Shown here: positions 810 to 17,658 of the stretch, piece by piece
How positions within the stretch are numbered: the stretch's first letter is position 1
How the letters are laid out: every line of letters starts with the position of its first letter
Origin: a virus
Virus record (IMG/VR): IMGVR_UViG_3300030060_001001
Coordinates: 1 to 22,534 of that record
Strand: one strand, 5' to 3'
Length of the DNA: 22,534 nt
The notes under the pieces: model-generated
The model's database searches: none
Told to the model about the DNA's origin: nothing
The model's input: the letters and a program-made list of their open reading frames with translations, nothing else
Made by a program: the position numbers and the translations under genes

Positions 810-1702
810 TATTTACCTCCAAAGATACTACCTAGACCATAAGCAGTTAATCCTGTTTGAAGAGCTTGTGATAATGGTCCAACTCCGCCACCTGCACCTG
901 GTTGTGTAGTTTGTGTAGATATTGGTATACCACCTGCTTGTGATGCTAATCCTGTACCTAAAACATTTAATCTACTAACTGGTTCTTGATAAGCTAATTG
1001 TGCTCTTTGTTGTGCTGCATCTAATAAAGCTTGGTTGAATCCTAAACTAGCTGTACCTGCACCACCTAATTGTTGAACGTTAGCTGCAACTAAAGATGGT
1101 TGCAAAGATGCTAAACCTCTTTGTTGATCAAAAGCTTGACCCGCTAATTGTTGTGCTTGACTAAAACCTTGTTGTGTTAATTGAGCTAGTAATGCTGCTC
1201 TGTTTCTATCTGATGTTGTTTGATACTCTGCTAATGCAACACCTTCTCTACCACCACCAAATGCTCCAGCACCAATCGCTTGTGCTTGAATTGCGGGTAT
1301 ACCTTTAGCTGCTTGAACATCAAACTCTTGTAGTGTTGTATCAATAACTTGTTGTTGATACGGAGACATAAAAGCTTGAAAAGCTTGTGGGCCAGAATAA
1401 GCTGCAGCTTGATCTAAGAATGGTTGAAAGCCAGCAACACCTGTACCAGTTCCAGCTCCTGTCAGTTGTCCTTCAGGACCAAATGATAATTGACCTAAGC
1501 CTGCTTGAGTGGCTGCCGCTTGTTGTGCTTGTTGAGTTAAAACATTTTGTCCAGCAACTTGTGGACCTAATTCAGCTAATGTTGGAACACCGGCTGTGCC
1601 TGGTGCTCTGCCTACTTGTTGTGTTAATAAATCTACATAATTTTCTTGAGCTGCTTCTAAAAAGGGTGCTCGTCTACTCAATGTTTCGTATGTTGTTGCC
1701 AT
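809..1702 (-). CDS. Gln/Ala-rich putative internal (ejection) virion protein
   Basis: The 297-residue protein is rich in Gln, Ala and Gly. Its long stretches would favour helices (about residues 100-240, with runs such as QAQQLAGQAFDQQRG), and it ends in a Gly-rich, weakly hydrophobic tail (GLTAYGLGSIFGGK). A central segment at about residues 110-160 (MSPYQQQVIDTTLQEFD, then GAGAFGGGREGVA) resembles a conserved core I recall from marine-phage virion proteins annotated as hypothetical or internal. It has no signal peptide and no catalytic motif. The start overlaps the stop of the upstream gene as TAATG, so the two are probably translationally coupled. A role in the ejectosome or as an internal core protein of a short-tailed phage is inferred from composition and neighbours. 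Confidence 0.7.
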   Translation of the reverse strand: MATTYETLSRRAPFLEAAQENYVDLLTQQVGRAPGTAGVPTLAELGPQVAGQNVLTQQAQQAAATQAGLGQLSFGPEGQLTGAGTGTGVAGFQPFLDQAAAYSGPQAFQAFMSPYQQQVIDTTLQEFDVQAAKGIPAIQAQAIGAGAFGGGREGVALAEYQTTSDRNRAALLAQLTQQGFSQAQQLAGQAFDQQRGLASLQPSLVAANVQQLGGAGTASLGFNQALLDAAQQRAQLAYQEPVSRLNVLGTGLASQAGGIPISTQTTQPGAGGGVGPLSQALQTGLTAYGLGSIFGGK

Positions 1703-4047: not shown

Positions 4048-4075
4048 AATATATGACTTTATTTGATTTTTTTAA
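4048..4075 (-). promoter_or_regulatory. Possible sigma70-type promoter before the internal virion genes
   Basis: Reading the minus strand, TTAAAA (4070-4075) is followed after 16 bases by TATATT (4048-4053). This lies across the end of the upstream glycosyltransferase gene and the 53-base gap before the 767-residue gene. The -10 element matches five of six consensus bases and the -35 element four. In such A/T-rich DNA a chance match is likely. Confidence 0.25.
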
Positions 4076-4922
4076 CAGGGTCAACTGTTTTAAGGTCTGT
4101 TAGTTCATCCCAAAAACGCCCACAATATTGATGATCTCCCACATGGGTAATGTAATCTAAGACATAAAGATAAGTTTTACCGCCCATTTCTAACCATCTT
4201 TGACAGAAACCAAAGTCTTCTCCAAAGTATCTTTTAGTTTTAGGATCGTGTAAACACTCAAATAAGTTATACATATTAGGCTTTTTAGTTTCTTTACCGT
4301 TGATAAAAGTAGGTTGATAGATCTCTAGTTCTGGATGAGCCTTTATCATCTTTTCAATAACACTTCTTTTAATTAACATACATCCAGTAGGAGCGTGTGT
4401 AACTTCTACTAACCCTTCCTCTACATTAAACTTCTTAGGATCTTTCATTTTTATAGGAAAAGTAAAACCTAATTTAGATATATGATCCGAATCCTTAGCT
4501 CCATGTTTCTGAAGCTTTCTAAATATTTTATCCCAATCTAGAAACTTCATAGGATAGGGACAAGCTATAATATCCTTGTCTTTTTCTAACATCGTAAAGA
4601 TAGTTTTGTGTTGAAAATCAATATCTGAGTCTATAAATAAAAGGTGGGTGTAATTATCTTTGTGAGTTATGAAATCAGCTACACATAAATTTCTTCCTTG
4701 TTGAACAAGAGATGATTTAAGTAAAGTAAAACTAACTACAATGTTTTTCATAATACAGGCCTGTTGAAATTTAAGCATAGATTGAACGTAGTGAATACTT
4801 GCCCCACTGTGCATAGGCGTACATACCATAATTTTATACTTAGGATTTACCATGGTAGCTTTGTTGGTTAAGTCTATAGTTTCAACGCCTTCGCCAAACC
4901 ATATCGGTTCATTATTTTCCAT
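4059..4922 (-). CDS. Glycosyltransferase, GT-A fold with DxD motif
   Basis: The 287-residue protein has a GT-A-like layout: an N-terminal Rossmann-like segment (YKIMVCTPMHSG near residue 29), a hydrophobic strand ending in FIDSDIDF with the DxD metal/sugar-nucleotide site at residues 98-100, a TGCMLIKR segment near 179, and GEDFGFCQRW with a candidate acidic pair at residues 235-236. A conserved-looking His follows at 260 (ITHVG). It would transfer a sugar from a nucleotide-sugar donor, and the acceptor cannot be read from sequence. It overlaps the preceding GT-B gene by 11 bases, so the two probably act together. Possible targets are a virion protein, hydroxylated product of the nearby oxygenases, or host surface glycan. 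Confidence 0.8.
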   Translation of the reverse strand: MENNEPIWFGEGVETIDLTNKATMVNPKYKIMVCTPMHSGASIHYVQSMLKFQQACIMKNIVVSFTLLKSSLVQQGRNLCVADFITHKDNYTHLLFIDSDIDFQHKTIFTMLEKDKDIIACPYPMKFLDWDKIFRKLQKHGAKDSDHISKLGFTFPIKMKDPKKFNVEEGLVEVTHAPTGCMLIKRSVIEKMIKAHPELEIYQPTFINGKETKKPNMYNLFECLHDPKTKRYFGEDFGFCQRWLEMGGKTYLYVLDYITHVGDHQYCGRFWDELTDLKTVDPVKKIK

Positions 4923-5844
4923 TTAGTAATCCTTCCAATGTTCTTTTCCAGTTGATAGATTGCTTAGACCAACCATAATACTTTCTTGCGTATTCTGATT
5001 GTAACATTAAATGTTCGTGTAAGGAAGGGTCAGATAAAGTAGGTACGACCGCATCAATAGCATAAGCAAATTTTTGAGACAAAGCTCTGTAGTTATTATC
5101 ATAAGGAATATACAAAGCGTATTCTGCACACGTTTCATAGAGGGCTCCGAAGTCCGTGAGTATACAGTAAAGACCCGCAGCCATTGATTCGATGGCCGAG
5201 ATGCATGACGTTTCTTCCCAGATACTTGGATAAACAAACATATGATAATCTTGTAAATGTTCTTTGATATAACTATTTGGTTTATAGCCTATATAGTTTA
5301 CGTTCTTTAATTGTTTAGCTTGATCATATAAATTTTGATATTGAGGATCATTTTTTTCTGCAAAGTCTTTTCCATATACCTCACAACTAGAATACACATC
5401 TAGGGTTAAATTACTTTTTACAAGCTGCATAGCGCCAAGTAATACAGATAGTCCTCTCCAGGGTGTGCAATGATGAATAAGTTTTATAGGTTCTCCTTTT
5501 TGATAAGGCTTTCTCATAGGTATTTCATCAATACCATTTTTAATTATAGTGCATCTATCTAATGGTATCTTAAATACTTTACGAAACTGTTCAAAGTTCC
5601 AGTGAGAATTAAATACATATAGGTCATATTTATTAAGGTTCTTGGGATCTTTAAACCAGGGGAAAATATTTGGTTGATCCCAAGAATTTTTTTGCCATAA
5701 GACATTCGGTTTTGTTGGATGTAAAGGAATTTTTTCTGGCACAGAAGTTGTAATCTGTACTTTATCTAGTAGATCTTTATCAACATATTTAGATAAATAT
5801 TCTAGTTGTAGTTCAGTCCCACCTTTAGGATTTTGGTTCATCAT
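4912..5844 (-). CDS. Glycosyltransferase, GT-B fold (family 4-like)
   Basis: The 310-residue protein carries the GGTE segment at residues 8-11 that contributes to the donor/acceptor cleft near the N-terminus of this group. The C-terminal half holds YPSIWEETSC...IESMAAG with the E-x7-E pair at residues 211 and 219 typical of retaining family-4 enzymes. The N-terminal half is short, and there are only seven residues before GGTE. The start is nevertheless firm, because an in-frame TGA lies four codons upstream of ATGATG. It overlaps the small upstream gene by 20 bases and the GT-A gene by 11. Acceptor and sugar are unknown. Two glycosyltransferases of different folds suggest successive sugar additions. 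Confidence 0.85.
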   Translation of the reverse strand: MMNQNPKGGTELQLEYLSKYVDKDLLDKVQITTSVPEKIPLHPTKPNVLWQKNSWDQPNIFPWFKDPKNLNKYDLYVFNSHWNFEQFRKVFKIPLDRCTIIKNGIDEIPMRKPYQKGEPIKLIHHCTPWRGLSVLLGAMQLVKSNLTLDVYSSCEVYGKDFAEKNDPQYQNLYDQAKQLKNVNYIGYKPNSYIKEHLQDYHMFVYPSIWEETSCISAIESMAAGLYCILTDFGALYETCAEYALYIPYDNNYRALSQKFAYAIDAVVPTLSDPSLHEHLMLQSEYARKYYGWSKQSINWKRTLEGLLNGK

Positions 5845-6625: not shown

Positions 6626-8578
6626 TTATCTCCTTCCATCTGGTTGTGCATCAAGTCTAAGAGATCCATATCGCCATGTCTCACCAACTGATTCGTTTTC
6701 TATTTTTACACTAAGCAATCTACCTCTTGCTCGAGTATCTATTTTTGTTGTGGTGCTTGTAACTGTAAATGGTCCTAACGGTGAAACAGTTTGAGTTTCA
6801 GAAGGGAAGTCACTAATGAATAATGAAATCTTTGAATTACCAACTATTTGTTTATAGTCAGGAATAAACCTTCTCATAGACATTAAAAATTCACCATCAT
6901 CAATATCAAAATCTGATGATCTAATAAATGCAGCTATGGCACTTGTACCAGTGCTATTAATTTGATCTGTGCCTTTTTCATGACAATAGTAAACAGTTGC
7001 TCCGTAAGTGTCAGTAATTCCAGATATAGGAAATAATGGAACATCTGATGGATCATTAGTTCCGCTTTGACCTTTAGCTACATAATTAGTTGCATAAGGT
7101 TCAGTAAAGACATCGCCATCTTGATACGTTGTTCTATCTAAAGATCCTGTATACCAGCTTGCTTCACCATAATTATAAGTAACAACCCGATCTACTTGTA
7201 GAGATCCTGATTTAGGATAGAACCAATTAACCTCTGTGTATAAACTATTATGACCTGAGTAAACAACTTCACTCGCATCAAAATTTAAACCTAAGTTTCC
7301 ATCACCTGTAGTAAATACAAAATCTTCAACCAAACAAGGTAATTGTTTTACAGTACCATCGTATTGAAAGAAACCACCCGTAGTCCCCATCCAAAACACA
7401 GCCCCCTGTGCAAAAGATACAGCATGTTGTCCAAGACAACCGCAGTTAGTTCCTACTTGTCTAATACTAAATGTAAAAGGTGGACCTACAAATTGTGCAA
7501 CATAAGCAGCTTGATCAGTTAATATTAAAATATAGTCTTTACCTTGAACTGCTGCTACAATCTTATTGCCTTGATCTAATTGAAATGTTCCAGCGGTGTT
7601 TGTAGCTGTGGGTGCATATACAGACGTAGACTCTTGATCTGAAAATCTAATAAACATCGGGTCTTGAGTAGCGACGTTACCAATTGTAGTTTCAGTTCCT
7701 AAATGAAATAAGTGTCTGTCTGTTTCAGAAACAATAGTTAATCTTGAAGCTGTTGGTGCTCCGCTCATTAAAGCTGATCTTATAGTACGAGCATTAGTTG
7801 CTCCAGCGTCCCAAGTAAAAGATTTGCCATTAGCAATAGTTGCTATTAAAGTTTCTCCAAAATTATCTAATGACCAATTACCTGGTTCAAGTGTTACATT
7901 AGAAGTTGCTCGTTCTGTACCCCAAGTTGAGTTACCCCAAAGATATGTGCCCCAACCATAACCAAGAGTTTGAACGGTAGGTCCTACTTCAGTATATGGA
8001 GTTACGGTTACAGATCCACCGGCGCTCATTCCTGTTCCGTTGTTTTCTGTTGTTGTAACACCAGCAGCAGGATTAGTTAAACTAATTGTAAAAGAGTTAG
8101 TTGTTGTAGTTAAAACTTCAAACGGATGAGTGGTAAAATCACTTGCTCCTAAAGTAGTGTTGGCTCCTATAGATACAGAACTTAAAACAATGTATCGACC
8201 TGGTTCTAATCCATGACCTGTAAAATTTATAGTTACCGTAGCTGCAGCTGCAGCTGACGTAGTAAAAGTTCCTGTGCCTGATAAGGCACTATCTAGTGGA
8301 CTAATGTCATAGAAAGCTCCACCATAGTATAAAAATAAACCTTGAGATGTTCCAATGGCAGCGTATTTTTCTCCAGCCAAAGATGTCCAAGTATGTTGGG
8401 CTCTTGCTACACCTGGTAAAGTATGTTGATCGTTAGTTAATTGTTGCCAACCACCAGTCTTTTCAGGGATACCATACCTAAATCTAACAAAGTCTCCATC
8501 TATCCATTTACCTGGAGAAGCTGCGGGAGTCCCTTGTTTATCAAAACCTGGTTGGAATCTTACTTTTTTTAATGCCAT
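6626..8578 (-). CDS. Tail nozzle/hub protein, P22 gp10-like
   Basis: The 650-residue protein begins MALKKVRFQPGFDKQGT, then GKWIDGDFVRFRYGIPEKTGGW, the signature N-terminus of the beta-propeller-like tail nozzle of short-tailed phages (functional analogue of P22 gp10 and T7 gp12). Propeller-like repeats follow (SRLTIVSETDRHLFHLG, DYILILTDQAAYVAQF, AVFWMGTTGGFFQYDG). A Thr/Ala/Ser-rich insertion at about residues 100-195 probably forms an added surface domain, and residues 208-220 carry a GWG-x3-WG-x3-WG motif shared with the repeat protein at 16081-17658. It would cap the tail below the gp4-like adaptor. A GGGGA ribosome site lies just upstream, after a 29-base gap separating it from the oxygenase block. 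Confidence 0.85.
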   Translation of the reverse strand: MALKKVRFQPGFDKQGTPAASPGKWIDGDFVRFRYGIPEKTGGWQQLTNDQHTLPGVARAQHTWTSLAGEKYAAIGTSQGLFLYYGGAFYDISPLDSALSGTGTFTTSAAAAATVTINFTGHGLEPGRYIVLSSVSIGANTTLGASDFTTHPFEVLTTTTNSFTISLTNPAAGVTTTENNGTGMSAGGSVTVTPYTEVGPTVQTLGYGWGTYLWGNSTWGTERATSNVTLEPGNWSLDNFGETLIATIANGKSFTWDAGATNARTIRSALMSGAPTASRLTIVSETDRHLFHLGTETTIGNVATQDPMFIRFSDQESTSVYAPTATNTAGTFQLDQGNKIVAAVQGKDYILILTDQAAYVAQFVGPPFTFSIRQVGTNCGCLGQHAVSFAQGAVFWMGTTGGFFQYDGTVKQLPCLVEDFVFTTGDGNLGLNFDASEVVYSGHNSLYTEVNWFYPKSGSLQVDRVVTYNYGEASWYTGSLDRTTYQDGDVFTEPYATNYVAKGQSGTNDPSDVPLFPISGITDTYGATVYYCHEKGTDQINSTGTSAIAAFIRSSDFDIDDGEFLMSMRRFIPDYKQIVGNSKISLFISDFPSETQTVSPLGPFTVTSTTTKIDTRARGRLLSVKIENESVGETWRYGSLRLDAQPDGRR

Positions 8579-8607: not shown

Positions 8608-9117
8608 TTATTGAAGTCTAAAATCAAAGGATATAATTCTTTTTTTAAAAGGTAGAGGATTAGGTCTAGTAAAATGCACAATAAATTGTGGCACGATAAC
8701 TATATCACCCACCTCTGCTTTAGGTTCGTATATAATACTTCTATCTCTGTCACAATTCCAAGGTTGCATATAACAAGTTGTGGGAGATTTTTTTTGCATG
8801 TTTAAATATAAAATACCACAATAACCTGTAGAGCCATGATTATGTGGAACATGATAATCACCTTTACCATATGTTGCTGACCAAGCACTATATAAATCTA
8901 TATTGCTTTTATAATGTTCGGATATTTGTAAAAACTCTTCTTGAAAAATATTAGCGACTACATCAGCTAACCCTGTTTTATCTCTATTACTAAAAAAATT
9001 ATGAAACCTTTTTTCAGGGTATTTTTTAAGCTCTTGTAAAATAGCTTTCTTTTTATCTTTAAAATTATTTGTTTTTAATGTTAAAAACTCTAATTTAAAC
9101 GGCGTGTCTATTTTCAT
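8608..9117 (-). CDS. 2OG-Fe(II) dioxygenase, HxH subtype (last of the block)
   Basis: The 169-residue protein has the double-stranded beta-helix core of the 2OG-FeII_Oxy_5-like group. YHVPHNHGSTGY places metal ligands at His92 and His94 before the GILYLN strand, the distal His148 lies in VPQFIVHFTRP, and the 2-oxoglutarate-binding Arg160 lies in KKRIISFDF. The segment VGDIVIVP is the strand leading to the distal His. All expected catalytic positions are present, so it should be an active hydroxylase or oxidase whose substrate cannot be read. It overlaps the preceding gene by 23 bases and is followed by a 29-base gap before the tail nozzle gene, which closes the block. Confidence 0.85.
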   Translation of the reverse strand: MKIDTPFKLEFLTLKTNNFKDKKKAILQELKKYPEKRFHNFFSNRDKTGLADVVANIFQEEFLQISEHYKSNIDLYSAWSATYGKGDYHVPHNHGSTGYCGILYLNMQKKSPTTCYMQPWNCDRDRSIIYEPKAEVGDIVIVPQFIVHFTRPNPLPFKKRIISFDFRLQ

Positions 9118-9454
9118 CTTTATTTCCTTTCGATATTTTTATGGTCCATTCTAAACTTTTTATTAAATTACTCAACTCTAAATTTTTTAATTTATTCTTT
9201 TTTACATGATTATTCAACTCTTCCATATCCAGTATAATCCATTTGTCTTTAAATTCGAAAACCATCTTGTCTGCCTTTGAATTTAAACGACCTGTTTTAT
9301 AGCCTCTGTCTTCGGACTCTTTAACTATTCCTCTTACATCAAACTTATAAAAAGCATTCTTGCCTTTTAATATGCCGCCAATATTCCAAGAAGTTTTTTC
9401 TTTTGGATATTCTATAGCGGTTAAATTTTTTGAAAACCTATCAACTATGTTCAT
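9095..9454 (-). CDS. Hypothetical protein embedded in the oxygenase block
   Basis: I do not recognise this 119-residue protein. It has a basic, mixed alpha/beta sequence with KADKMVFEF followed by KDKWIILDMEEL at about residues 60-82, a pattern of paired beta strands with acidic residues, then a Lys/Asn-rich helix. There is no HxD/HxH triad, so it is not an obvious oxygenase. A small nucleic-acid-related alpha/beta fold is possible, but nothing proves it. It overlaps the preceding gene by 14 bases and the next by 23, which argues that it is expressed with the oxygenases and may be an accessory or substrate-recognition factor (inference). Confidence 0.65.
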   Translation of the reverse strand: MNIVDRFSKNLTAIEYPKEKTSWNIGGILKGKNAFYKFDVRGIVKESEDRGYKTGRLNSKADKMVFEFKDKWIILDMEELNNHVKKNKLKNLELSNLIKSLEWTIKISKGNKDENRHAV

Positions 9455-10091
9455 ATAAAATAGTATATCTATCAGTAACTCTTACTAATGCTAAATCAAA
9501 AGCAATTGTAATTCTCTTAATATCACCTTTGTGTTTATCTGTATAATGTGGAATAAAATTTTGAAACAAAGTCAGTTTACCTCCTTCGTTTTTACTTTGA
9601 TAAGCGTTTGGATCGCATAATTGATTTATTATATTTATGTAATAAGTAGATGTATTATTACATTGAACACAAAAGTGTCCACCTAAATAAGTATCTGGAT
9701 CCCAAGCATGAGCATGAGCTTTTATGGCTTCGTTTTTATCCATAATATTATACCAGCATTTACCATATAAAGTTTTAGGCAGCTCTAATCCTAAAGCCTG
9801 TATAAATTTATTATGATTTTTAATTATTTGTTTTTTTAATTTATCTATTTCTTTGTGTTTAAAATTGAAAAGATTATATTCTTTATGTCTTGTAGTTGTA
9901 TGGTTTTTTAATCCAGTATACCCATCATTAGATATTTTTAATTTTAATATATCTTTTTCTTTTTTAAGTAAATATTTAGATAGATTTTTTAAATCTATAT
10001 TTTCAATAGATGCCTCAAATATAAAATATTTCCATACTGGAGCTAATGGATTGTTTTGACCTTCATTTTTAAATTCTAATAATTTCATCAA
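9441..10091 (-). CDS. 2OG-Fe(II) dioxygenase-like protein, HxH subtype
   Basis: The 216-residue protein has a helical N-terminal half and a beta-helix C-terminal half. The ligand strand reads AIKAHAHAWDPDTYLGG, with candidate metal ligands His126 and His128 (His128 to Asp131 is a less standard alternative). The distal His182 is in FQNFIPHYTD and the 2OG-binding Arg193 in IKRITIAFDL. The GGKLTLF segment before the distal His fits the conserved turn and strand of the family. It overlaps both neighbours (4 and 14 bases). The first ligand region differs more from the family pattern than in the adjacent gene, so activity is likely but less certain. Confidence 0.75.
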   Translation of the reverse strand: MMKLLEFKNEGQNNPLAPVWKYFIFEASIENIDLKNLSKYLLKKEKDILKLKISNDGYTGLKNHTTTRHKEYNLFNFKHKEIDKLKKQIIKNHNKFIQALGLELPKTLYGKCWYNIMDKNEAIKAHAHAWDPDTYLGGHFCVQCNNTSTYYINIINQLCDPNAYQSKNEGGKLTLFQNFIPHYTDKHKGDIKRITIAFDLALVRVTDRYTILYEHS

Positions 10092-10672
10092 GTACTAATC
10101 TTAAAGTTTATAGCTACGCTAATTCTTTCTCCTTTACTTTTAAAACTATTAACAATATGAGGTAACTTCGCAGGGAACATTAAAAAATCTCCCACTTGTG
10201 GATTAAATGTTCTCATATTAATAAAAAAAGGTGTGGTTTGAGCGTTTATTAAAAAGTTTATATCTCCAGGTTTTGAACCGCTCGTCACTATATTGTCTCT
10301 TTCTTTTTTAAGATTTTTAGGAAAATTTAAATAAATCACAGAAGAAAAATCACAACGATTATGTACATGTATTGGATTAGACTCATTAGCTTTCATAAAA
10401 TTAACCCATCCTTCTGAAATAGATATGTCTTTAAAACTTTTGTCATACCAATTTTGATAAGCTTGTTTAAAAGAAACTAAATGTGGATCTAATATTTTTT
10501 TTAAAGCTACCTGATCTTCTATTCTATATTCTTGTTTAATAAGTCCAGCTAATTCTTGATTCCATACTTGTTTTTTATCTTTTTTACACAGATCGATTAA
10601 CTTACGTATCTCTTCATCTGTTAGACGTGATTCAAATATTAAAGGTCCTGAATAATAAAATCTGTAGTTCAT
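10088..10672 (-). CDS. 2OG-Fe(II) dioxygenase, HxH subtype
   Basis: The 194-residue protein matches the 2OG-FeII_Oxy_5-like pattern closely. EGWVNFMKANESNPIHVHN gives ligands His102 and His104 ahead of the FSSVIYLNFP strand. VGDFLMFPAKLPHIV gives the distal His172, and GERISVAINF gives Arg183. The N-terminal 80 residues are helical and charged. It joins both neighbours through 4-base overlaps. It is the first HxH-type enzyme in the transcript after four HxD-type enzymes. Confidence 0.85.
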   Translation of the reverse strand: MNYRFYYSGPLIFESRLTDEEIRKLIDLCKKDKKQVWNQELAGLIKQEYRIEDQVALKKILDPHLVSFKQAYQNWYDKSFKDISISEGWVNFMKANESNPIHVHNRCDFSSVIYLNFPKNLKKERDNIVTSGSKPGDINFLINAQTTPFFINMRTFNPQVGDFLMFPAKLPHIVNSFKSKGERISVAINFKIST

Positions 10673-11238
10673 TTAAAATTTGGTCCTGTTAAGAATAAAA
10701 CTAAATTTCTTCTTTCTCCTTGTGTAACAGGAGTTACCATATGTCTAGTGTAAGATTTAAAAATAATAAATGTTCCGGGTTTTTTTAATTCTTTAACCTC
10801 AATTTCATCCCCCTTTTGTAAAAATAAATCTCCTCCTACAAAAGGTTTTTCAGAAAGATTAATGATCATTGTAAATTTCATATCAGCGTAGGGATCTGGA
10901 TCCTCATCTACATGCCAGTCATAATTAGATTGTTTATTTGAAGGATAAACATTATATAGACATGTATCTGTATCTCTATATTTCCATATGTCATAACCAT
11001 ATGATTTTCGATTTGCTTCAAAAGCAAGATCTAATAATCTTGAAACATAGGGTTTTACTTTTTGATAATTAATTATATAAGAATCTAAATTTTTTTTTGA
11101 AACCCCTTTCAGATCATGTGCCTTATGTGTCTGTGGTTCTATAGAATCATAATTAGACATAATTAATTTGTTTAATTTTTTAATTTCTTTTAAAGTTAAT
11201 TGATTTTCCCAATACCAGTAAGGATGATGATTAGCCAT
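10669..11238 (-). CDS. 2OG-Fe(II) dioxygenase, HxD subtype (prolyl-hydroxylase-like)
   Basis: The 189-residue protein has NYDWHVDEDP with the HxD pair His109/Asp111, KFTMIINLSE as the following strand, VGGDLFLQKGD as the conserved Gly-Gly turn, and the distal His166 in YTRHMVTPVTQGERRNLVLFL with Arg176 or Arg177 for 2OG binding. This is the layout of the P4H/PKHD group, which hydroxylates protein or small-molecule substrates. All catalytic residues are present. It overlaps the preceding gene by 8 bases and the next by 4. Confidence 0.88.
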   Translation of the reverse strand: MANHHPYWYWENQLTLKEIKKLNKLIMSNYDSIEPQTHKAHDLKGVSKKNLDSYIINYQKVKPYVSRLLDLAFEANRKSYGYDIWKYRDTDTCLYNVYPSNKQSNYDWHVDEDPDPYADMKFTMIINLSEKPFVGGDLFLQKGDEIEVKELKKPGTFIIFKSYTRHMVTPVTQGERRNLVLFLTGPNFK

Positions 11239-11890
11239 TATAAATCCTTTTAAACCAATCCGGAAGACCTAGATGAGGCCGACCATCAAATTGTTTTGCT
11301 ATTGGTGATGTAGAATCATTGTAGTGTAAAAATACTTGTACACAATCTTGTCCTTCAAATTTTTCTCTCCAATGCTCTAACACACAACCTGAATAAACAA
11401 GCATATCACCAGGTTTAAGATTTATTTTTTTACCTTTTGCATTACTTTCAGTTGTAATGTTTTGACCATCAGGAAAACCAACGTTTTCTGTGGGACTTAA
11501 ATATATAGGCCATGGGTCTCCACCAAGATTCAAAGTTGTTGATATCTCACAGCTTGGTCTATCTTTGTGTCTTTTTAATTCATCACCTTTTTTATAAATA
11601 CGTGTGTAAGAATACATAGGAATTAATTTAGTTTTTGTAACTTTCTCCATAGCTGATTGACATTTAAGTAACAAAGTTTCCATAGCTATATCAGAATAAT
11701 GTGAGTAAGTGTTTGGTACTTGTTTATCTGTCCAAACTCCAAAGTATTGTGCGAAAGGTGAAATATATTTATAATCAAACAAAGTTTTAGCTACCTGTCT
11801 TTTCATTAATAAATAGTTGTATAAAAATTTAGCTAAATCTTTTGATACTGCTTTTTTAATAATTGTATATTTATTTTTTTTAAAACTCAT
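11231..11890 (-). CDS. 2OG-Fe(II) dioxygenase-like protein, HxD subtype
   Basis: The 219-residue protein contains YTRIYKKGDELKRHKDRPSC with the metal pair His108/Asp110 and an Arg directly after it, ISTTLNLGGDPWPIYL as the next strands, then LKPGDMLVYSGCVLEHWRE with the distal His173. Unlike its neighbours, the strand after the distal His (QDCVQVFLHYND) has Gln where the 2OG-binding Arg is usual, so 2OG may be held by another basic residue such as Arg175. It is joined to both neighbours by short overlaps (4 and 8 bases). Related sequences are, as I recall, frequent in marine phages. Confidence 0.8.
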   Translation of the reverse strand: MSFKKNKYTIIKKAVSKDLAKFLYNYLLMKRQVAKTLFDYKYISPFAQYFGVWTDKQVPNTYSHYSDIAMETLLLKCQSAMEKVTKTKLIPMYSYTRIYKKGDELKRHKDRPSCEISTTLNLGGDPWPIYLSPTENVGFPDGQNITTESNAKGKKINLKPGDMLVYSGCVLEHWREKFEGQDCVQVFLHYNDSTSPIAKQFDGRPHLGLPDWFKRIYNG

Positions 11891-12531
11891 TTAAATGGAA
11901 ATCCTAAGTTCCACATTACCAAAGAATATCGAGTGCCTCTTTTTACAGGACATACTCTGTGCCACATAAAAGATGGAAAAACTACAATTGAACCTCTGGG
12001 TGCAATCTCTGTGCATTTAACAAAATTTCTTTTTTCATTAGGATTTTTATTTCTATAATCAAATTCTAATTCACCACCTTGATAATCTTTAGGGTCTGAC
12101 AAACTTACTGTTACAGATAATTTTCTTGTCTTACCTTTTGTTGGGCCTTCTTCTGTGTAAGGTCTATCCCAACTATCACAATGCCAACCATAAAATTGTT
12201 TTTTTGAATATCTTGTAAACTGACAAGGCTCAGACCAATCCCAATCAAAGTTCCAACCCGCATTTTTGTTAGCCATATGAACAAAAGGTTGAATAGCCTC
12301 ATATATCCATGGATCATCTAACCAAGTAATATTAGAATTTCTTATCTTTCTTAAGTCTTTTAGTTCTTTTTTTGTTAGCGGCTTTTTAATTAAATCTCTT
12401 TTAAATTTTGCATCACCAGTAAAAGCTACTTGTTCTTTATCTTTTTTAGATAGACCATGCTGAATAATTTCATCACATATTTTAGGTGAGAGAGCTTGTT
12501 TAAAATACCAGTATTTATAATTAAGATTCAT
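11887..12531 (-). CDS. 2OG-Fe(II) dioxygenase, HxD subtype (PKHD/P4H-like)
   Basis: The 214-residue protein is the clearest member of the block. FYGWHCDSWD gives the HxD pair His117/Asp119, TRKLSVTVSLSDPKDYQGGELEF is the canonical strand and Gly-Gly turn, and PRGSIVVFPSFMWHRVCPV gives the distal His191, followed by Arg201 in GTRYSLVMW. This matches the PKHD-type hydroxylase layout over its whole length. It has 4-base overlaps at both ends. The substrate is unknown. Family precedent includes prolyl and other residue hydroxylation. Confidence 0.9.
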   Translation of the reverse strand: MNLNYKYWYFKQALSPKICDEIIQHGLSKKDKEQVAFTGDAKFKRDLIKKPLTKKELKDLRKIRNSNITWLDDPWIYEAIQPFVHMANKNAGWNFDWDWSEPCQFTRYSKKQFYGWHCDSWDRPYTEEGPTKGKTRKLSVTVSLSDPKDYQGGELEFDYRNKNPNEKRNFVKCTEIAPRGSIVVFPSFMWHRVCPVKRGTRYSLVMWNLGFPFK

Positions 12532-13016
12532 TTTAAATAATTAATATTAATGTTAATTCTTCCATCTGCGTTTGTGCAAGTCGTACTGTTATGGGGTATA
12601 GAGGAGTCAAAAAATAAAGCTCTATTCTCTATAGTTTTAATTGTAGTTCCGTCTTGTAGCCTAGTAAAACCATTATTATTATTTACATAAATAATAAAGC
12701 CACTATGTTTAAATGAAAAATCAATGTGTTTACCGTGTTCATGTATTTCAGGAGAATGTGGATAAAAATTTGCTTTTGCTCTCAATAAAAATTCAGGATT
12801 TAATTTTTTTAAAATAGGTCTAATCATATTATAATGTCTAGATTCACCTGCTCTATTCCGATAAAATTCATGTGTAAAATAATAACCGTCTTTTGAATTA
12901 GAACCCGCCGTTTCATGATTGTAAAACCAAGGGAACTCGTGATTTAGAATTTGTTTTTTTAATTCTTTAAATGTTTTTTTGGGTAAAAAATTATCAACTA
13001 TTTTATAATTTAACAT
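12528..13016 (-). CDS. 2OG-Fe(II) dioxygenase, HxD subtype (compact)
   Basis: The 162-residue protein is shorter than most relatives but has the expected sites: IHEHGKHIDFSF with His97/Asp99, the strand GFIIYVNNNNGFTRL, ALFFDSSIPHNSTTC with the distal His142, and GRININI with Arg153. The segment NFYPHSPEIHEHGKHID is typical of phage 2OG proteins in which extra His residues lie next to the active pair. It overlaps the preceding gene by 14 bases and the next by 4. Confidence 0.85.
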   Translation of the reverse strand: MLNYKIVDNFLPKKTFKELKKQILNHEFPWFYNHETAGSNSKDGYYFTHEFYRNRAGESRHYNMIRPILKKLNPEFLLRAKANFYPHSPEIHEHGKHIDFSFKHSGFIIYVNNNNGFTRLQDGTTIKTIENRALFFDSSIPHNSTTCTNADGRINININYLK

Positions 13017-13548
13017 ATGTTGTGGTTAAAAAAATGTTGGTATTGAATGAACTATTTTCATTAATAAAAAATTTTAAATAAGAAGGAAATACTATAAATT
13101 TATTATTTTCTATTGGATATGAAGATAATTCATTCACTCCTCTTTTATTTTGTGTCTCTAAAACAACAGAGGCCTCTTTAACATCAACTCCATATATCAT
13201 AACAAAATCAGGTGATTCTTTTATATTTGTTGGATCTATCATGTTTCTAAAAAAAGATTGTTGTTTTGGATCAAATATATTTCCAAAAGACAATCTAGGT
13301 TCAAGTCCTAAATCGTAATAAACACGTAATTTTTCATGAACGTAATCTCTTACTAATTGTACCGGTTTAGAAGTATTTATCTCATAATCACTGGATGCAA
13401 AATGATATGGGTTTTGACTAACTGTTCTTTGATTTATTTTTGAATGTAAGATATCCGATTTAATTAAATATCTATCCACTTCATGGTGTTTTGGTAGTTT
13501 AATTTCACCTTCAAACAAAATAGTTTGTGATAATATTTTTTTATTCAT
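13003..13548 (-). CDS. Possible ligand-less relative of 2OG dioxygenases, first gene of the block
   Basis: The 181-residue protein resembles the C-terminal beta-helix of its neighbours by pattern only. DFVMIYGVDV could correspond to the strand after the first ligands, and FIVFPSYLKFFINEN matches the family's FP-x3-L-x-H stretch except that Phe160 sits where the distal His is expected. The closing strands (NTNIFLTTTYV) lack the 2OG-binding Arg. No HxD or HxH occurs, and the only His residues (21, 22, 35, 49, 71) lie in the N-terminal half. It could be a catalytically dead partner or an unrelated beta protein. It overlaps the next gene by 14 bases, and its ribosome site is weak. Confidence 0.65.
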   Translation of the reverse strand: MNKKILSQTILFEGEIKLPKHHEVDRYLIKSDILHSKINQRTVSQNPYHFASSDYEINTSKPVQLVRDYVHEKLRVYYDLGLEPRLSFGNIFDPKQQSFFRNMIDPTNIKESPDFVMIYGVDVKEASVVLETQNKRGVNELSSYPIENNKFIVFPSYLKFFINENSSFNTNIFLTTTYVKL

Positions 13549-13611: not shown

Positions 13612-14001
13612 TTACACAGGATCAACTAATTCCCATGCACCGTTTTCTTCATTCCATAGGTATCGTTTACCTTGACTTTCTTCTTCTGCAGTTAATTCAG
13701 ACGGTCCACCGACAGGTGAAACCCATTCAGCTGCTGCAATATCTTTAGTCCATGATGGATAAGGTTGTGCTGACCAAAAAATTTTATTAACAGGATCCCA
13801 TTCCATACCAACACCACAAGCATTTTTATTACCATGACCTTCTATGACCCATTGAGCTGCTGGCCATCCAGTTAGGTTTTCACAAAATGTTTGACCTACA
13901 GACTCTGATACGTCTCCGTTTTCATCTGATGTGTCTTTTTTGTCTACCACTATAACGTTTAAGACCATATTATTTTCGTCTAATTTTCCAAAAACTATCA
14001 T
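13612..14001 (-). CDS. Small fibre-associated-type protein with a 'YPSWTKD' motif
   Basis: The 129-residue protein begins with a beta strand pair (MIVFGKLDENNMVLNVIVVD) and continues with TFCENLTGWPAAQWV, then NACGVGMEWDPVNKIFWSAQPYPSWT and a Trp-containing end (YLWNEENGAWELVD). This series corresponds to a family I recall from marine phages, in which a Gly/Trp segment is followed by P-x-P-S-W and a final W repeat. Its members sit next to tail fibre genes and are annotated as hypothetical or virion proteins. It starts one base after the glycine-rich gene's stop without a clear ribosome site. A role in fibre assembly or as a fibre cap is inferred. Confidence 0.65.
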   Translation of the reverse strand: MIVFGKLDENNMVLNVIVVDKKDTSDENGDVSESVGQTFCENLTGWPAAQWVIEGHGNKNACGVGMEWDPVNKIFWSAQPYPSWTKDIAAAEWVSPVGGPSELTAEEESQGKRYLWNEENGAWELVDPV

Positions 14002-14002
14002 A

Positions 14003-14953
14003 TTATTTATATTTATACCTTATAACTACAGCTCCTGAGCCGCCAGTTTGTGGGTTAGCATAAAAATCTCCTTTTGCACCGCCGCCAGTTCCTGGTTGTC
14101 CCTTGTTTGTAGGGCCTGGGTAATCTGGTGTTGTAAAATTATAAGGGCTTCCTCCGCCACCACCGACTCCACCGCCGCCTGATGATCTTTGACTTGGTGA
14201 TCCTCCGCCAGCAAAATATCTTAATGGTGCACTTGGGCCTTGAATACCCGCTGTTGCAGAAATTTCAGTTCCAACTCCTGAGCCTCCTGAGCCAGTTGAG
14301 CCACCTGAATTTCCAGCTGCGCCAGCTCCTCCGCCACCGCCTGTTTGTGGAGATCCTGTTGCACCGTTATTTCCTTCAGGTGGTGAATAACCTCCTGAGT
14401 TTCCAGATCCTCCTGGAGATCCTCCGTTGGCTCCTCCGCCTCCGCCAGATCCTCCTGGATTTCCTGAAGTTGTGCCGCCGCCTCCGCCGCCACCAGATGC
14501 ATTTATTGTAGAAAAAGTTGAAGTACCTCCAGCTTGTCCGGAACCTCCCGATGCTGGTCCAGTGTAGCCTCCTCCGGCTCCAACTGTGATTGGGTAAGAT
14601 CCTGGGGATGCTGAAATAGGTATTGATGTAGATGATGCTAATGGACTTGCAGTGTATGGACCAGAAGTTGCGTCTACATGAGATTCTCTAAATCCTCCTG
14701 CTCCGCCTCCTCCAGCAAATGCATAACCTCCTGCAGCCCCACCGCCGACTACAACGTAGTCAACTACTTGTGCGGGTCCGGGTACGGCTCCTGAAATTTT
14801 ATCTATTGTAAAAGTTCCGCTAGATGTAAAAGTGTGAACTCTGTACTCACCAATATCTTCTGTTGAACCACCTGAAGCTGAAATTAAATCTGCGCCACCA
14901 AAGGCACCAAAACCTCTTATTGAAGCCGCTCCTCTTGAACCTATAATTGGCAT
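14003..14953 (-). CDS. Glycine-rich fibre tip/adhesin-like protein
   Basis: The 316-residue protein has an N-terminal beta domain (YRVHTFTSSGTFTID, then VDYVVVGGGAAGG) and a large Gly-rich body from about residue 69. Runs such as SGGGGGGGTTSGNPGGSGGGG alternate with short non-Gly loops, and the protein ends with GGSGAVVIRYKYK. This matches the Gly-rich phage adhesin pattern, in which polyglycine-II sandwiches carry variable loops (compare T-even gp38-type adhesins). Its codons make the region much richer in G+C than the oxygenase genes. It probably acts at the fibre tip in receptor recognition. A strong AGGAGGAG ribosome site precedes the ATG. Confidence 0.8.
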   Translation of the reverse strand: MPIIGSRGAASIRGFGAFGGADLISASGGSTEDIGEYRVHTFTSSGTFTIDKISGAVPGPAQVVDYVVVGGGAAGGYAFAGGGGAGGFRESHVDATSGPYTASPLASSTSIPISASPGSYPITVGAGGGYTGPASGGSGQAGGTSTFSTINASGGGGGGGTTSGNPGGSGGGGGANGGSPGGSGNSGGYSPPEGNNGATGSPQTGGGGGAGAAGNSGGSTGSGGSGVGTEISATAGIQGPSAPLRYFAGGGSPSQRSSGGGGVGGGGGSPYNFTTPDYPGPTNKGQPGTGGGAKGDFYANPQTGGSGAVVIRYKYK

Positions 14954-14974: not shown

Positions 14975-16048
14975 TTACGCGAACTGTGTTTGAGCTGCGA
15001 ACGCTGTAAAAGCAGCATCGCCAGTTTTAATTACAGTGTACGTATATATGTCAACAGAGTTAGCGTTACCAGCTGAAGGTGCAGATCCACCTTGATATTC
15101 TGGAGTAACACTTGATCCGTCAATTGTAAAAGCTGATTGATAATATGGTGTGCCTGTATTTGTTACTAAGAAAGCAACTGTGATTGACTCACCTGTGTCC
15201 ATAATATTGTTTAAAGTTGTAGAACCATCGCCTCTAATGTTAACTGTAAAGTTACCAGCAGCTGCTGTTGTATGGTAAAGAACAGATTGTGTAACTACAT
15301 CAAAGTTAGTTACGCCTGTTGTACCTGTTGCAGCTATAGTTACTTTTTCTGCTACTTGTTGAATTTTTCCACCACCATTAAGTGTAACTCTACCAGTTCC
15401 TTTTGGTGTTAATGTCATGTCAACGTTTGTGTCACCACCTGTTACTGAAAGTGCAGGACTGCCGCTTGATGCAGCGTTGGTAACTGAAAATTCGTTAACA
15501 GCTGAACCTGTTGTAGCAAATTTAATTTGCTCATTAGAGTTTTCGTCTAAGATAGCTTTTGTATTATCGATGATAATATTTTGACCGTTAGTATCTAAGT
15601 CAGCTGAAAGTTGTGGCGAGAAGTCTGAAGATAATTCTGTGAAAGCTGTATCTACAATGTTAGTACCATCACCATATACCATCTTCGTTCCTTTGTCAGC
15701 TGCAGCCCATACTACTCCAGATCCTGAAGATGTTTTGACTGTTACTGAGTAAGCGCCTGAAGTGGCATTGTCTACGATATAAACTTTTTCTACTACAGGA
15801 ACAACTACGTTAACGTTTGTTGTAATAGTTCCAGTTAATTGTAATACTGCATTTTTTCCATTGGAAACCGCACCATTTGAAACTGTTAATGTTGCACCTG
15901 TTGTAGCATTAAGGGCAACTGCTTCATAACCAGCAATCGCTTGTTCTACGATTAATAAGTTTGTATTTGTAATTTGTCCCCATGTTCCCGAGTTTTCACC
16001 GGTTGCTTGGACTGTAAGTTTTAAAAAACTTGATGTTGAATTCGCCAT
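14975..16048 (-). CDS. Tail fibre-like virion protein
   Basis: The 357-residue protein starts MANSTSSFLKLTVQATGENS, then GTWGQITNTNLLIVEQAIAGY, an N-terminus I associate with tail fibre or appendage proteins of marine phages. The middle is made of repeated beta strands of the kind seen in fibre shafts (QIKFATTGSAVNEFSVTN, PALSVTGGDTNVDMTLTPKG, TGRVTLNGGGKI). The C-terminal part (GNANSVDIYTYTVIKTGDAAFTAFAAQTQFA) is a compact beta unit. There is no enzymatic motif. It lies between the Trp/Gly repeat protein and the glycine-rich adhesin, consistent with one fibre assembly. Confidence 0.75.
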   Translation of the reverse strand: MANSTSSFLKLTVQATGENSGTWGQITNTNLLIVEQAIAGYEAVALNATTGATLTVSNGAVSNGKNAVLQLTGTITTNVNVVVPVVEKVYIVDNATSGAYSVTVKTSSGSGVVWAAADKGTKMVYGDGTNIVDTAFTELSSDFSPQLSADLDTNGQNIIIDNTKAILDENSNEQIKFATTGSAVNEFSVTNAASSGSPALSVTGGDTNVDMTLTPKGTGRVTLNGGGKIQQVAEKVTIAATGTTGVTNFDVVTQSVLYHTTAAAGNFTVNIRGDGSTTLNNIMDTGESITVAFLVTNTGTPYYQSAFTIDGSSVTPEYQGGSAPSAGNANSVDIYTYTVIKTGDAAFTAFAAQTQFA

Positions 16049-16080: not shown

Positions 16081-17658
16081 TTAAGCTGCGGTGTCAACCT
16101 CTCTCCACGTAGCGGTTGTGCCGGTATCAACGGTTTCCCAGATTAAAGCATTAAGCGATCCAGTGGACATTGTCAAGCCATTTCCTGTTAAACTTACTGT
16201 CCCCGTTCCCGTTAAACTTACACTACCAACTGTACTTGTCAAGGTAATTCCTGAAGGAGAAGCTATTGTATTTGGTGTTCCTACAGCACTTGCAAGGGTT
16301 GCTGTCATGCCTATTCCTGAAGGTGCTACTTGTATCGAATCAGATATTCCACCCCAATCTAAAGCACCCCATGTAGATCTCCCCCAACCTACATTAATTT
16401 CAGTAGAAATTCCTACATCAGCAACAGTTGAAGTTAATCCAAATCCTACTAAATCAGCTTTGTCATTTCCATCATTATTCCATAAACCTTGGCCCCATTC
16501 TTTTCTACCCCAACCAGTGTTAACTTCAGCAGTTGCGGTTACAGAACCAAGACTAGCAGTTAAATCAAAACTTCCTGTGACTAGTGTTCCAGGTATACCC
16601 CAACCTAATTCACCCCAATTAGTTCTTCCCCAACCAGTATTGACTTCTGTTGTTAAAGAAACAGAACCAAGTGATGCTGATAATCCAAATCCAGTAATTG
16701 ATGCAGCTTCGTTTGGAGATCCCCATGATTGGGCTCCCCATTCTGTTCTACCCCAACCAGTATTAACTTCTGCCGTTGTAGTTACAGATCCTAAACCTGC
16801 TGATAAAGCTTGACCTGTTACATTTACATTTAATTCTGTTTCATTAGTATTCCAACCTTCTGCTCCCCAAGTTTTTCTTCCCCATCCAGTATTAACTTGA
16901 GACGTAATTGATACAGATCCGAGGCTTGCGGACATTCCTATGCCTGTTACTAAAGTAGTTCCAAAAGTTCCCCACGATGCTTCGTTCCAACCAAAACGAC
17001 CCCAACCTGTATTTATTTCTGATCCAATAGTTACACTTCCTAAAGAAGCTGACATTCCTATGCCACTTGGAAACGCATCAGTATTTGTAGCTGCGCCCCA
17101 TTGATCAGATCCCCAAAATCTTCTACTCCAACCTTGTTCTACGGTTGCGTCTATAGTTACACTAGCTAAATTTGAAGTTAATGGAATTCCTGTTACTTGA
17201 GGTGTAGCGTTATCTTGATCACCCCAACTACCCGTACTCCAACTTAAAGATCCCCATGCATCATTAACAATATCTAGTTCTCCTCCCATTCCTATTCCGT
17301 GATAATAACAATAGTAAAAAAGATCTTGTGCGCTTGCAGGTGTAATTTCTACATATCGAGTTGTTGCTGAATTAAAAGTTCCACTAGCGTAATCAGAATA
17401 AGGAACTGATGATCCATCTAAATTATAAACAACTCCTGTTTCTATTCTTCCAGAGTTAGGATTTGATGAATCATTTGTAAATAATAATGGATGATTATCG
17501 TTTGACGAAGCGTCTTGATTAAATCTTAATGTAGCACCTTGCGTCCACACAATATCCATATCACGAACACCGTCGAGATAATAAACATTACCTGCTCCAG
17601 AACCTGACGGATATAGATTTCCAGTTGCGACTGTGACTGTGTAAGTTTTATCCGCCAT
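16081..17658 (-). CDS. Cupredoxin-like domain fused to eight Trp/Gly repeats, virion protein
   Basis: The 525-residue protein has three parts. Residues 1-132 look like a cupredoxin: beta strands, NDNHPLLF with His56, then FYYCYYHGIGMGGEL with Cys117, His120 and Met124, the H...C-x2-H...M order of type 1 copper sites. The Met is one residue closer than in plastocyanin. Residues 135-440 contain eight ~41-residue units built on GWGR-x2-WG-x3-WG followed by SASLGSVS-type strands. Residues 450-525 are beta strands ending in WETVDTGTTATWREVDTAA. It sits in the tail gene block after a small virion gene. Copper binding is predicted, not shown, and the fold could be kept without metal. Confidence 0.75.
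   Translation of the reverse strand: MADKTYTVTVATGNLYPSGSGAGNVYYLDGVRDMDIVWTQGATLRFNQDASSNDNHPLLFTNDSSNPNSGRIETGVVYNLDGSSVPYSDYASGTFNSATTRYVEITPASAQDLFYYCYYHGIGMGGELDIVNDAWGSLSWSTGSWGDQDNATPQVTGIPLTSNLASVTIDATVEQGWSRRFWGSDQWGAATNTDAFPSGIGMSASLGSVTIGSEINTGWGRFGWNEASWGTFGTTLVTGIGMSASLGSVSITSQVNTGWGRKTWGAEGWNTNETELNVNVTGQALSAGLGSVTTTAEVNTGWGRTEWGAQSWGSPNEAASITGFGLSASLGSVSLTTEVNTGWGRTNWGELGWGIPGTLVTGSFDLTASLGSVTATAEVNTGWGRKEWGQGLWNNDGNDKADLVGFGLTSTVADVGISTEINVGWGRSTWGALDWGGISDSIQVAPSGIGMTATLASAVGTPNTIASPSGITLTSTVGSVSLTGTGTVSLTGNGLTMSTGSLNALIWETVDTGTTATWREVDTAA
16339..17259 (-). repeat. Tandem ~123-bp repeat coding eight Trp/Gly units
   Basis: Trp-rich units begin at about residues 135, 176, 218, 258, 301, 342, 382 and 424, a spacing of 40-43 residues. 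The plus strand shows the corresponding CCCCAACC-type core at about 16383, 16508, 16627, 16750, 16881, 17002 and 17125. Central copies (four to six) are the most alike at DNA level (CCCCAACCAGTATTRACTTC), and the outer copies, especially the first (AWGSLSWSTGSWG), are degenerate. Confidence 0.9.

Follow-up and report, generated by a model that had tools for sequence, protein, structure and literature searches.

The uncultivated virus record IMGVR_UViG_3300030060_001001, analysed here over its whole length of 22,534 bp (the window), carries a block of nine overlapping genes, g1 to g9, between the gene for a glycine-rich tail fibre (F), with a small partner gene (P) next to it, and the gene for the tail nozzle protein. 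Seven of the nine encode predicted 2-oxoglutarate (2OG)-Fe(II)-type enzymes with complete iron-ligand sets, four of the HxD type and three of the HxH type. Among related phages the replacement of the 2OG set goes together with that of F and P, and the flanking virion genes remain almost identical. The block may well be a fibre-specific protein-modification cassette, i.e., the enzyme half of a host-recognition cassette acting on a putative substrate, and this reading is put forward tentatively. The 2OG families themselves were already known from marine phages; what appears to be new is their organisation as a fibre-linked exchange unit.

Judged from its late genes, the window is an HTVC023P-type pelagiphage (the PolA gene is not on the 22.5-kb record). 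The nozzle protein is 57-59% identical to its counterparts in HTVC023P and HTVC027P, the late genes are homologous and syntenic, and the arrangement of fibre, nozzle and glycosyltransferase genes is common to the window and the HTVC023P-type genomes. The host is probably the ocean's commonest bacterium, and the HTVC023P-type pelagiphages have been described as the most abundant known group (PMC12753301). The genes concerned are the following, with lengths in amino acids (aa):

16081-17658: f1
14975-16048: f2
14003..14953, minus strand: F, glycine-rich tail fibre/adhesin-like protein, 316 aa; forms the left boundary of the cassette that is exchanged
13612..14001, minus strand: P, small partner protein, 129 aa; phrog_7759, E 1e-18; directly upstream of the block
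13003..13548, minus strand: g1, predicted pseudo-2OG-oxygenase, 181 aa; 2OG fold with the ligand positions replaced
12528..13016, minus strand: g2, predicted HxD-type 2OG oxygenase, 162 aa; phrog_274 "DNA endonuclease V", E 1e-47
11887..12531, minus strand: g3, predicted HxD-type 2OG oxygenase, 214 aa; PF13640, E 2.3e-17; phrog_61
11231..11890, minus strand: g4, predicted HxD-type 2OG-like oxygenase, 219 aa; phrog_2954 "ferrochelatase", E 2.9e-52
10669..11238, minus strand: g5, predicted HxD-type 2OG oxygenase, 189 aa; PF13640, E 2.2e-10
10088..10672, minus strand: g6, predicted HxH-type 2OG oxygenase, 194 aa; PF13759, E 7.6e-17
9441..10088, minus strand: g7, predicted HxH-type 2OG oxygenase, 215 aa from ATG 10088; PF13759, E 3.2e-7
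9095..9454, minus strand: g8, protein with a predicted PD-(D/E)XK nuclease fold, 119 aa; matches of the AlphaFold2 (AF2) model
8608..9117, minus strand: g9, predicted HxH-type 2OG oxygenase, 169 aa; phrog_81, E 7.8e-23
6626..8578, minus strand: nozzle/stabilisation virion protein, 650 aa; phrog_3287 virion structural protein, E 4.5e-82

F matches the Pfam family PF21722 (Gly_rich_2) above the cut-off (E 1.6e-10) and also phrog_2295, while the nozzle gene forms the stable right flank of the cassette. The nine open reading frames run on the minus strand from 13548 to 8608, and successive genes overlap by 14, 4, 4, 8, 4, 4, 14, and 23 nucleotides (nt), in agreement with an earlier note on this DNA that described overlaps of 4-23 nt from end to start. 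The listed start of g7 is TTG at 10091; its relatives begin one codon further on, at ATG 10088, which gives an overlap of 1 nt. The block is AT-rich, with a G+C content of 0.25-0.30 compared to 0.32-0.50 in the flanks.

Profile searches against 2OG families, as proposed in the earlier note, matched PF13640 or PF13759 to five of the seven predicted enzymes. PF13640 was found above the cut-off for g3 and g5 and PF13759 for g6 and g7, while g9 fell just below it for PF13759 (25.9 bits, cut-off 27). The same five proteins match the PHROG 2OG families phrog_61 or phrog_81. The iron ligands of the HxD...H type are H97/D99/H142 in g2 (with R153, 96-99% conserved across relatives), H117/D119/H191 in g3 (with R201), H108/D110/H173 in g4, and H109/D111/H166 in g5 (with R176), the last three sets being 100% conserved. 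Those of the HxH...H type are H102/H104/H172 in g6 (100%, with R183 at 98%), H126/H128/H182 in g7 (with R193), and H92/H94/H148 in g9, the last two also at 100%. The seven ligand sets that had been read from the window alone, four HxD and three HxH, are thus borne out by 96-100% conservation in relatives. The arginine expected to bind 2OG, about 10 residues past the distal histidine, is conserved in g2, g3, g5, g6, and g7; it is not clear in g9, and in g4 no 2OG-binding Arg or Lys stands at the usual place.

It had further been suggested that the enzymes are distinct rather than recent duplicates. Indeed, only one pair within the block, g3 and g5, matches in BLASTP at E<=1e-5, with 25% identity, and recent local duplication was rejected on this comparison. 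The ratio of nonsynonymous to synonymous substitution rates (dN/dS) against orthologues is 0.06-0.34 for the block genes tested, which did not include g3, and this corresponds to purifying selection. The closest sequence relatives of g3 with a solved structure in the PDB are PKHD-type hydroxylases, while those of the HxH-type proteins are the uncharacterised 2rg4 and 3bvc; sequence searches of the PDB with profiles of g1, g2, g4, and g8 gave no significant match.

Two of the seven belong to families that carry other names, and both of these widely propagated labels, "ferrochelatase" for g4 and "DNA endonuclease V" for g2, look wrong; from their conserved residues and profile matches the proteins look to be 2OG-type themselves. 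In g4, H108, D110, and H173 are invariant down to 27% identity, and a broader alignment of the family matches the 2OG family phrog_61 in hhalign (probability 71, E 3.8e-5) with the HxD motif and the distal histidine in register. The broader alignment gave no hhalign match to g2. One relative of g4, from a cyanophage, bears the annotation oxoglutarate/iron-dependent dioxygenase, and no member out of 31 phrog_2954-type proteins matches the ferrochelatase Pfam family at E <= 0.1. A real ferrochelatase is therefore unsupported; the HxD...H set is conserved instead. In the g2 alignment 23 of 35 members match PF13640 at E <= 0.1, while none of the 35 matches the Pfam family of endonuclease V at that level, leaving a T4-type DNA endonuclease V equally unsupported. 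A cyanophage protein, S-SCSM1_248 (L279:583-1668), has a g4-like domain at its N-terminus, and further sequence in it is assigned by its authors to a second 2OG-type domain.

The first gene of the block, g1, is on sequence and model evidence a conserved pseudo-oxygenase that keeps the double-stranded β-helix fold with all metal and 2OG ligand positions replaced. It matches no Pfam family. Its profile aligns to the HxH-type 2OG family (hhalign probability 93, E 2.7e-7), and in this alignment N108, K110, F160, and N171 occupy the columns of H102, H104, H172, and R183; among 64 relatives of g1 no histidine is conserved. The AF2 model of g1 has a predicted local distance difference test score (pLDDT) of 91 and matches 2OG enzymes in Foldseek with a probability of 1.00. 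Compared using VIA, it reaches a Z of 15.7 against 3bvc and 2rg4 (for 3bvc a root-mean-square deviation of 3.8 over 167 residues), and the matches include EF-Tu prolyl hydroxylases and a chlorovirus collagen prolyl hydroxylase. The dN/dS of g1 is 0.23. The family is found in 23 of the 54 surveyed loci that have F/P and in none of the 15 without them (p 0.0013). TlxI, which is among the top Foldseek matches of the model, lacks the 2OG-binding arginine, and it stabilises and reshapes its catalytic paralogue TlxJ (PMC11880133). The fungal heterodimeric 2OG oxygenases TlxI-TlxJ and TlxC-TlxA thus resemble g1 in having a partner subunit without a functional 2OG site, but they serve meroterpenoid biosynthesis, whereas g1 is a phage protein for which a partner role is only proposed.

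For a survey of the block's surroundings, 69 non-redundant nozzle loci, each having 5.5 kb or more of upstream sequence, were taken and their 2OG genes within 9 kb counted. The loci had been selected for their relationship to the window, and the counts hence describe this group and not phages in general. 2OG genes are found near the nozzle in 68 of the 69, in numbers from 1 to 10 with a median of 5, and their products form 65 clusters at 35% identity. The view that a run of seven is unusual does accordingly not hold for this group, while the placement in the tail region does, between F with its partner P and the nozzle. HTVC023P, HTVC027P, and 023Pt_psg01 each carry 3-5 genes of the 2OG families seen in the window. 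The usual order is f1, f2, F, P, the 2OG genes, g8, and the nozzle gene. Among 175 runs of at least two 2OG genes, P lies directly upstream of 83, and in 71 of these 83 F is next upstream; 98 of the 175 begin directly behind P or F. Most other runs are continuations past an inserted gene, or inverted blocks. Gene-order surveys had been named as a way to reveal a chimeric assembly. This explanation was rejected, as the same order recurs in the independent contigs L176, L083, and L175/L090.

Where the module has moved, it remains linked to F and P. The whole unit of F, P and 2OG genes is placed before f1 and f2 in HTVC023P, 023Pt_psg01, L018, and L022, and in HTVC033P, which is outside the group, F, P, and F are followed by three 2OG genes. 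The T4-like HTVC008M has five 2OG genes convergent with F and P with one small open reading frame between, while in the T4-like Mosig a phrog_2295/Gly_rich_2 fibre gene and a different small gene precede six 2OG-type genes. Unrelated genes for proteins of about 370-530 aa, labelled x385, x448, x476, and x509, are inserted among the 2OG genes of some relatives (L098 8018-9163, L123 8233-9653, L232, and similar loci). An inverted 2OG block between the fibre genes and the nozzle, with F/P undetected, is seen in L117, L138, L167, L121, L137, L148, and L091 (HTVC027P), in the last of which it comprises three genes; several inverted-block loci share the 2OG clusters 10, 17, 19, and 23, which are not seen in loci with F/P.

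Comparisons of close relatives show where the exchanged segment begins and ends. L120 and L123 are 92.5% identical until 47 nt into F, then diverge through F, P, and the oxygenase genes, and regain 98.0% identity from just before the nozzle gene. L102 and L103 have the same break in F, and their identity resumes at the first bases of g8. Between the window and L029 only the first 128 codons of F are retained, followed by patches of 65-75% up to the nozzle. Phages with swapped cassettes thus share flanks of about 90-98% identity, with abrupt boundaries close to the beginning of F and at g8 or the nozzle. In Mantel tests on 32 loci the similarity of the 2OG repertoires follows that of F (r 0.37) and of P (r 0.42), both with p 0.002, whereas no correlation was found with the nozzle (r 0.10, p 0.18) or with f2 (r -0.04). 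Corrected for the nozzle, the correlation with F is 0.34. At 30-40% identity in F the repertoires overlap by 0.18 on average, and above 90% by 1.0. The sequence of g4, a nearly universal member, likewise tracks F (r 0.44) and not the nozzle (r 0.11).

Protein-acting 2OG hydroxylases are well established, for instance those acting on EF-Tu and the collagen prolyl hydroxylases of chloroviruses. In the mechanism proposed for the block the enzymes would be made late, together with the virion proteins, and, as virions assemble, would add hydroxyl groups to side chains of F and/or P. Every fibre version would then be accompanied by a modifying enzyme set of its own. The inactive paralogue g1 might be a stabilising or substrate-presenting partner, as TlxI is for TlxJ, and g8 or the conserved flanks may help the cassette to recombine. 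The reading as a fibre-modification cassette is supported by the ligand conservation and fold evidence for 2OG-type proteins, by the fixed address of 2OG genes in 68/69 nozzle loci, typically behind F and P, and by the linkage to F-P that persists when the module moves, including HTVC033P and HTVC008M and, for the fibre, Mosig. It is further supported by the co-exchange of the cassette, with the repertoire and g4 tracking F and P, by the confinement of the g1 family to loci with F/P, and by purifying selection on the tested genes. Virion proteomics of S-SCSM1 found 45 proteins (PMC9602691), and the S-SCSM1 record labels no 2OG protein as part of the virion, which fits enzymes rather than structural parts.

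The earlier note had left the choice between an ordered pathway, a complex, and action on several sites of one substrate. An ordered modification pathway is unlikely because close relatives differ almost entirely in their gene content, while a complex of the block proteins is possible given that a pseudo-oxygenase is conserved among them. One substrate with several sites fits best with the sequence comparisons. Of the substrates named, all of them putative, fibre proteins are favoured indirectly by the exchange of F, P, and the oxygenases as a single unit. A wider proposal, possible but somewhat doubtful, is that adhesins of the dominant ocean pelagiphages are chemically tailored, each glycine-rich fibre being combined with interchangeable hydroxylases of its own and a dead partner, so that host range would follow from the fibre sequence together with a swappable modification code.

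Several observations weigh against a fibre-modification cassette. F and P were not detected in 15 of the 69 loci, and in 10 of these 15 the block is mostly inverted. Single 2OG genes are also found away from fibres: only 2/21 2OG genes of S-SCSM1 lie near a glycine-rich gene (p 0.75), and the figure for HTVC008M is 5/19 (p 0.066). In a 30-locus subset defined by g8 the repertoire correlates with the nozzle as well (r 0.32, p 0.006), and the number of 2OG genes shows no rise with the content of Pro, Asn, Asp, Lys, or Tyr in F, the residues that are usually hydroxylated; only Gly and Thr are negatively and Arg/His weakly positively related to it, uncorrected for multiple testing. The co-inheritance could also reflect nothing more than physical proximity in a hotspot of exchange. 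A rather unlikely alternative is that the slot between F and the nozzle is a recombination hotspot gathering 2OG enzymes that act on small molecules or on the metabolism of the host (2OG/nitrogen status, iron, nutrients), their linkage to the fibre being incidental. A metabolic role is how earlier authors have read phage 2OG genes (PMC3037559; PMC9602691; PMC9599517), and it is in keeping with the scattered copies away from fibres in S-SCSM1 and HTVC008M. It does not, however, lead one to expect turnover that follows F/P in preference to the nozzle, which adjoins just as closely, the repeated F-P linkage in other pelagiphage groups, or a conserved non-catalytic paralogue such as g1.

The enzymes might instead edit the receptor, modifying a host surface molecule (e.g., the sugars or lipid of lipopolysaccharide, or an outer-membrane protein) so that sibling virions no longer bind the infected cell or its debris. 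Since the enzyme set must then match the adhesin, the same co-exchange of F/P and 2OG genes is predicted, and two glycosyltransferase-type genes (4059-5844) are found nearby. These do however lie outside the exchanged segment, the 2OG genes are in the tail region with no detected link to polysaccharide pathways, and this alternative is considered unlikely. That phage DNA or nucleotides are oxidised in the manner of AlkB or TET, in modification or repair, is very improbable: the PHROG name "DNA endonuclease V" of one family and non-significant profile matches to a DNA m6A demethylase (E 0.21) and TET-like enzymes (E 0.41) speak for it, but neither Pfam nor the PDB sequences yielded a significant match to a 2OG family that acts on nucleic acids, the closest solved relatives are PKHD-type (g3) or the uncharacterised 2rg4/3bvc (HxH), and the genes are located in the tail region and change with the fibre. 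Host iron-uptake genes are raised by HTVC027P infection (PMC12753301), which would suit proteins that load or carry iron for virions, a variant of the "Ferrojan horse", and are not enzymes. This can hardly be credited when the whole HxD/H...H...R set is conserved as for catalysis, in several families together with the arginine that binds 2OG, and when 45 S-SCSM1 virion proteins were found (PMC9602691) and no 2OG protein is marked among them in the record.

The genes for 2OG-Fe(II) oxygenases belong to the commonest "auxiliary" ones that marine phages carry and are usually explained by host metabolism or DNA repair; no phage substrate is given for the enzymes in the marine-phage literature cited here. 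With the 2OG set being replaced together with the fibre in this group, the question of the substrate becomes directly testable in cultured relatives, by asking whether virion fibres are hydroxylated and whether this follows the cassette. Post-translational modification would, if the fibre-modification reading is true, be a new layer of phage host recognition.

2OG clusters have been known in this group since 2022 (PMC9599517). Wittmers et al. (2022) described eight non-orthologous 2OG genes and "ferrochelatases" that always adjoin a 2OG gene (PMC9599517). The gene sets are like those of the window, coming from the same phage group and the same gene families, but there the 2OG genes are described as near and not adjacent, while the genes of the window are contiguous. 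The partner was in that study taken to be a real ferrochelatase tied to haem iron, whereas here both "ferrochelatase" and "endonuclease V" look to be of 2OG type. What is added here is one predicted pseudoenzyme member and the exchange of the set with a glycine-rich fibre; a word search of PMC9599517 for tail fibre, receptor, and hydroxyl terms came back empty. T4-like cyanophages (S-SCSM1 with 24 2OG genes; Sullivan et al., 2010) share PF13640, PF13759, and the "ferrochelatase" family with the window but differ in that their 2OG genes are mostly scattered through the genome, replication region included. A general linkage of 2OG genes to glycine-rich fibres in cyanophages was rejected, as it is not found in S-SCSM1. 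The Pelagibacter phages Mosig EXVC030M (six genes) and HTVC008M (five) have 2OG-type runs beside a Gly_rich_2 fibre as seen here, but the virion type is another one, the block lies between the fibre and the neck genes, and in HTVC008M it is on the opposite strand from the fibre. HTVC008M (L291-L293) has about 19 2OG-type genes genome-wide according to hidden Markov models, more than its annotation names.

The protein encoded by g8 appears from its model to have a PD-(D/E)XK nuclease-like fold with non-canonical catalytic residues, and its nuclease function is putative. The AF2 model (pLDDT 81) has I-Ssp6803I as its best Foldseek match (probability 0.95), followed by RecU. VIA gives a Z of 7.6 to NhoI, under the tool's safe margin of 8, followed by Hjc, I-Ssp6803I, RecU, and PvuII; nearly all of the best structural matches are PD-(D/E)XK nucleases. 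D39, K63, D76, and E79 are conserved in at least 99% of relatives, while the usual acidic position before K63 is an alanine (Ala61) in 97%. The gene usually separates the 2OG genes from that of the nozzle and is located at, or close to, the right end of the exchanged stretch. The protein resembles homing endonucleases and resolvases, and g8 could be the driver of cassette exchange.

Downstream of the nozzle, at 4059-5844, two overlapping genes encode a group-1 glycosyltransferase (PF00534) and a phrog_1574 protein whose glycosyltransferase match is below the threshold. They could act on hydroxylated residues, yet they sit outside the exchanged segment. A 767-aa tail-region protein encoded at 1702-4005 contains the short motif DGGRIG four times.

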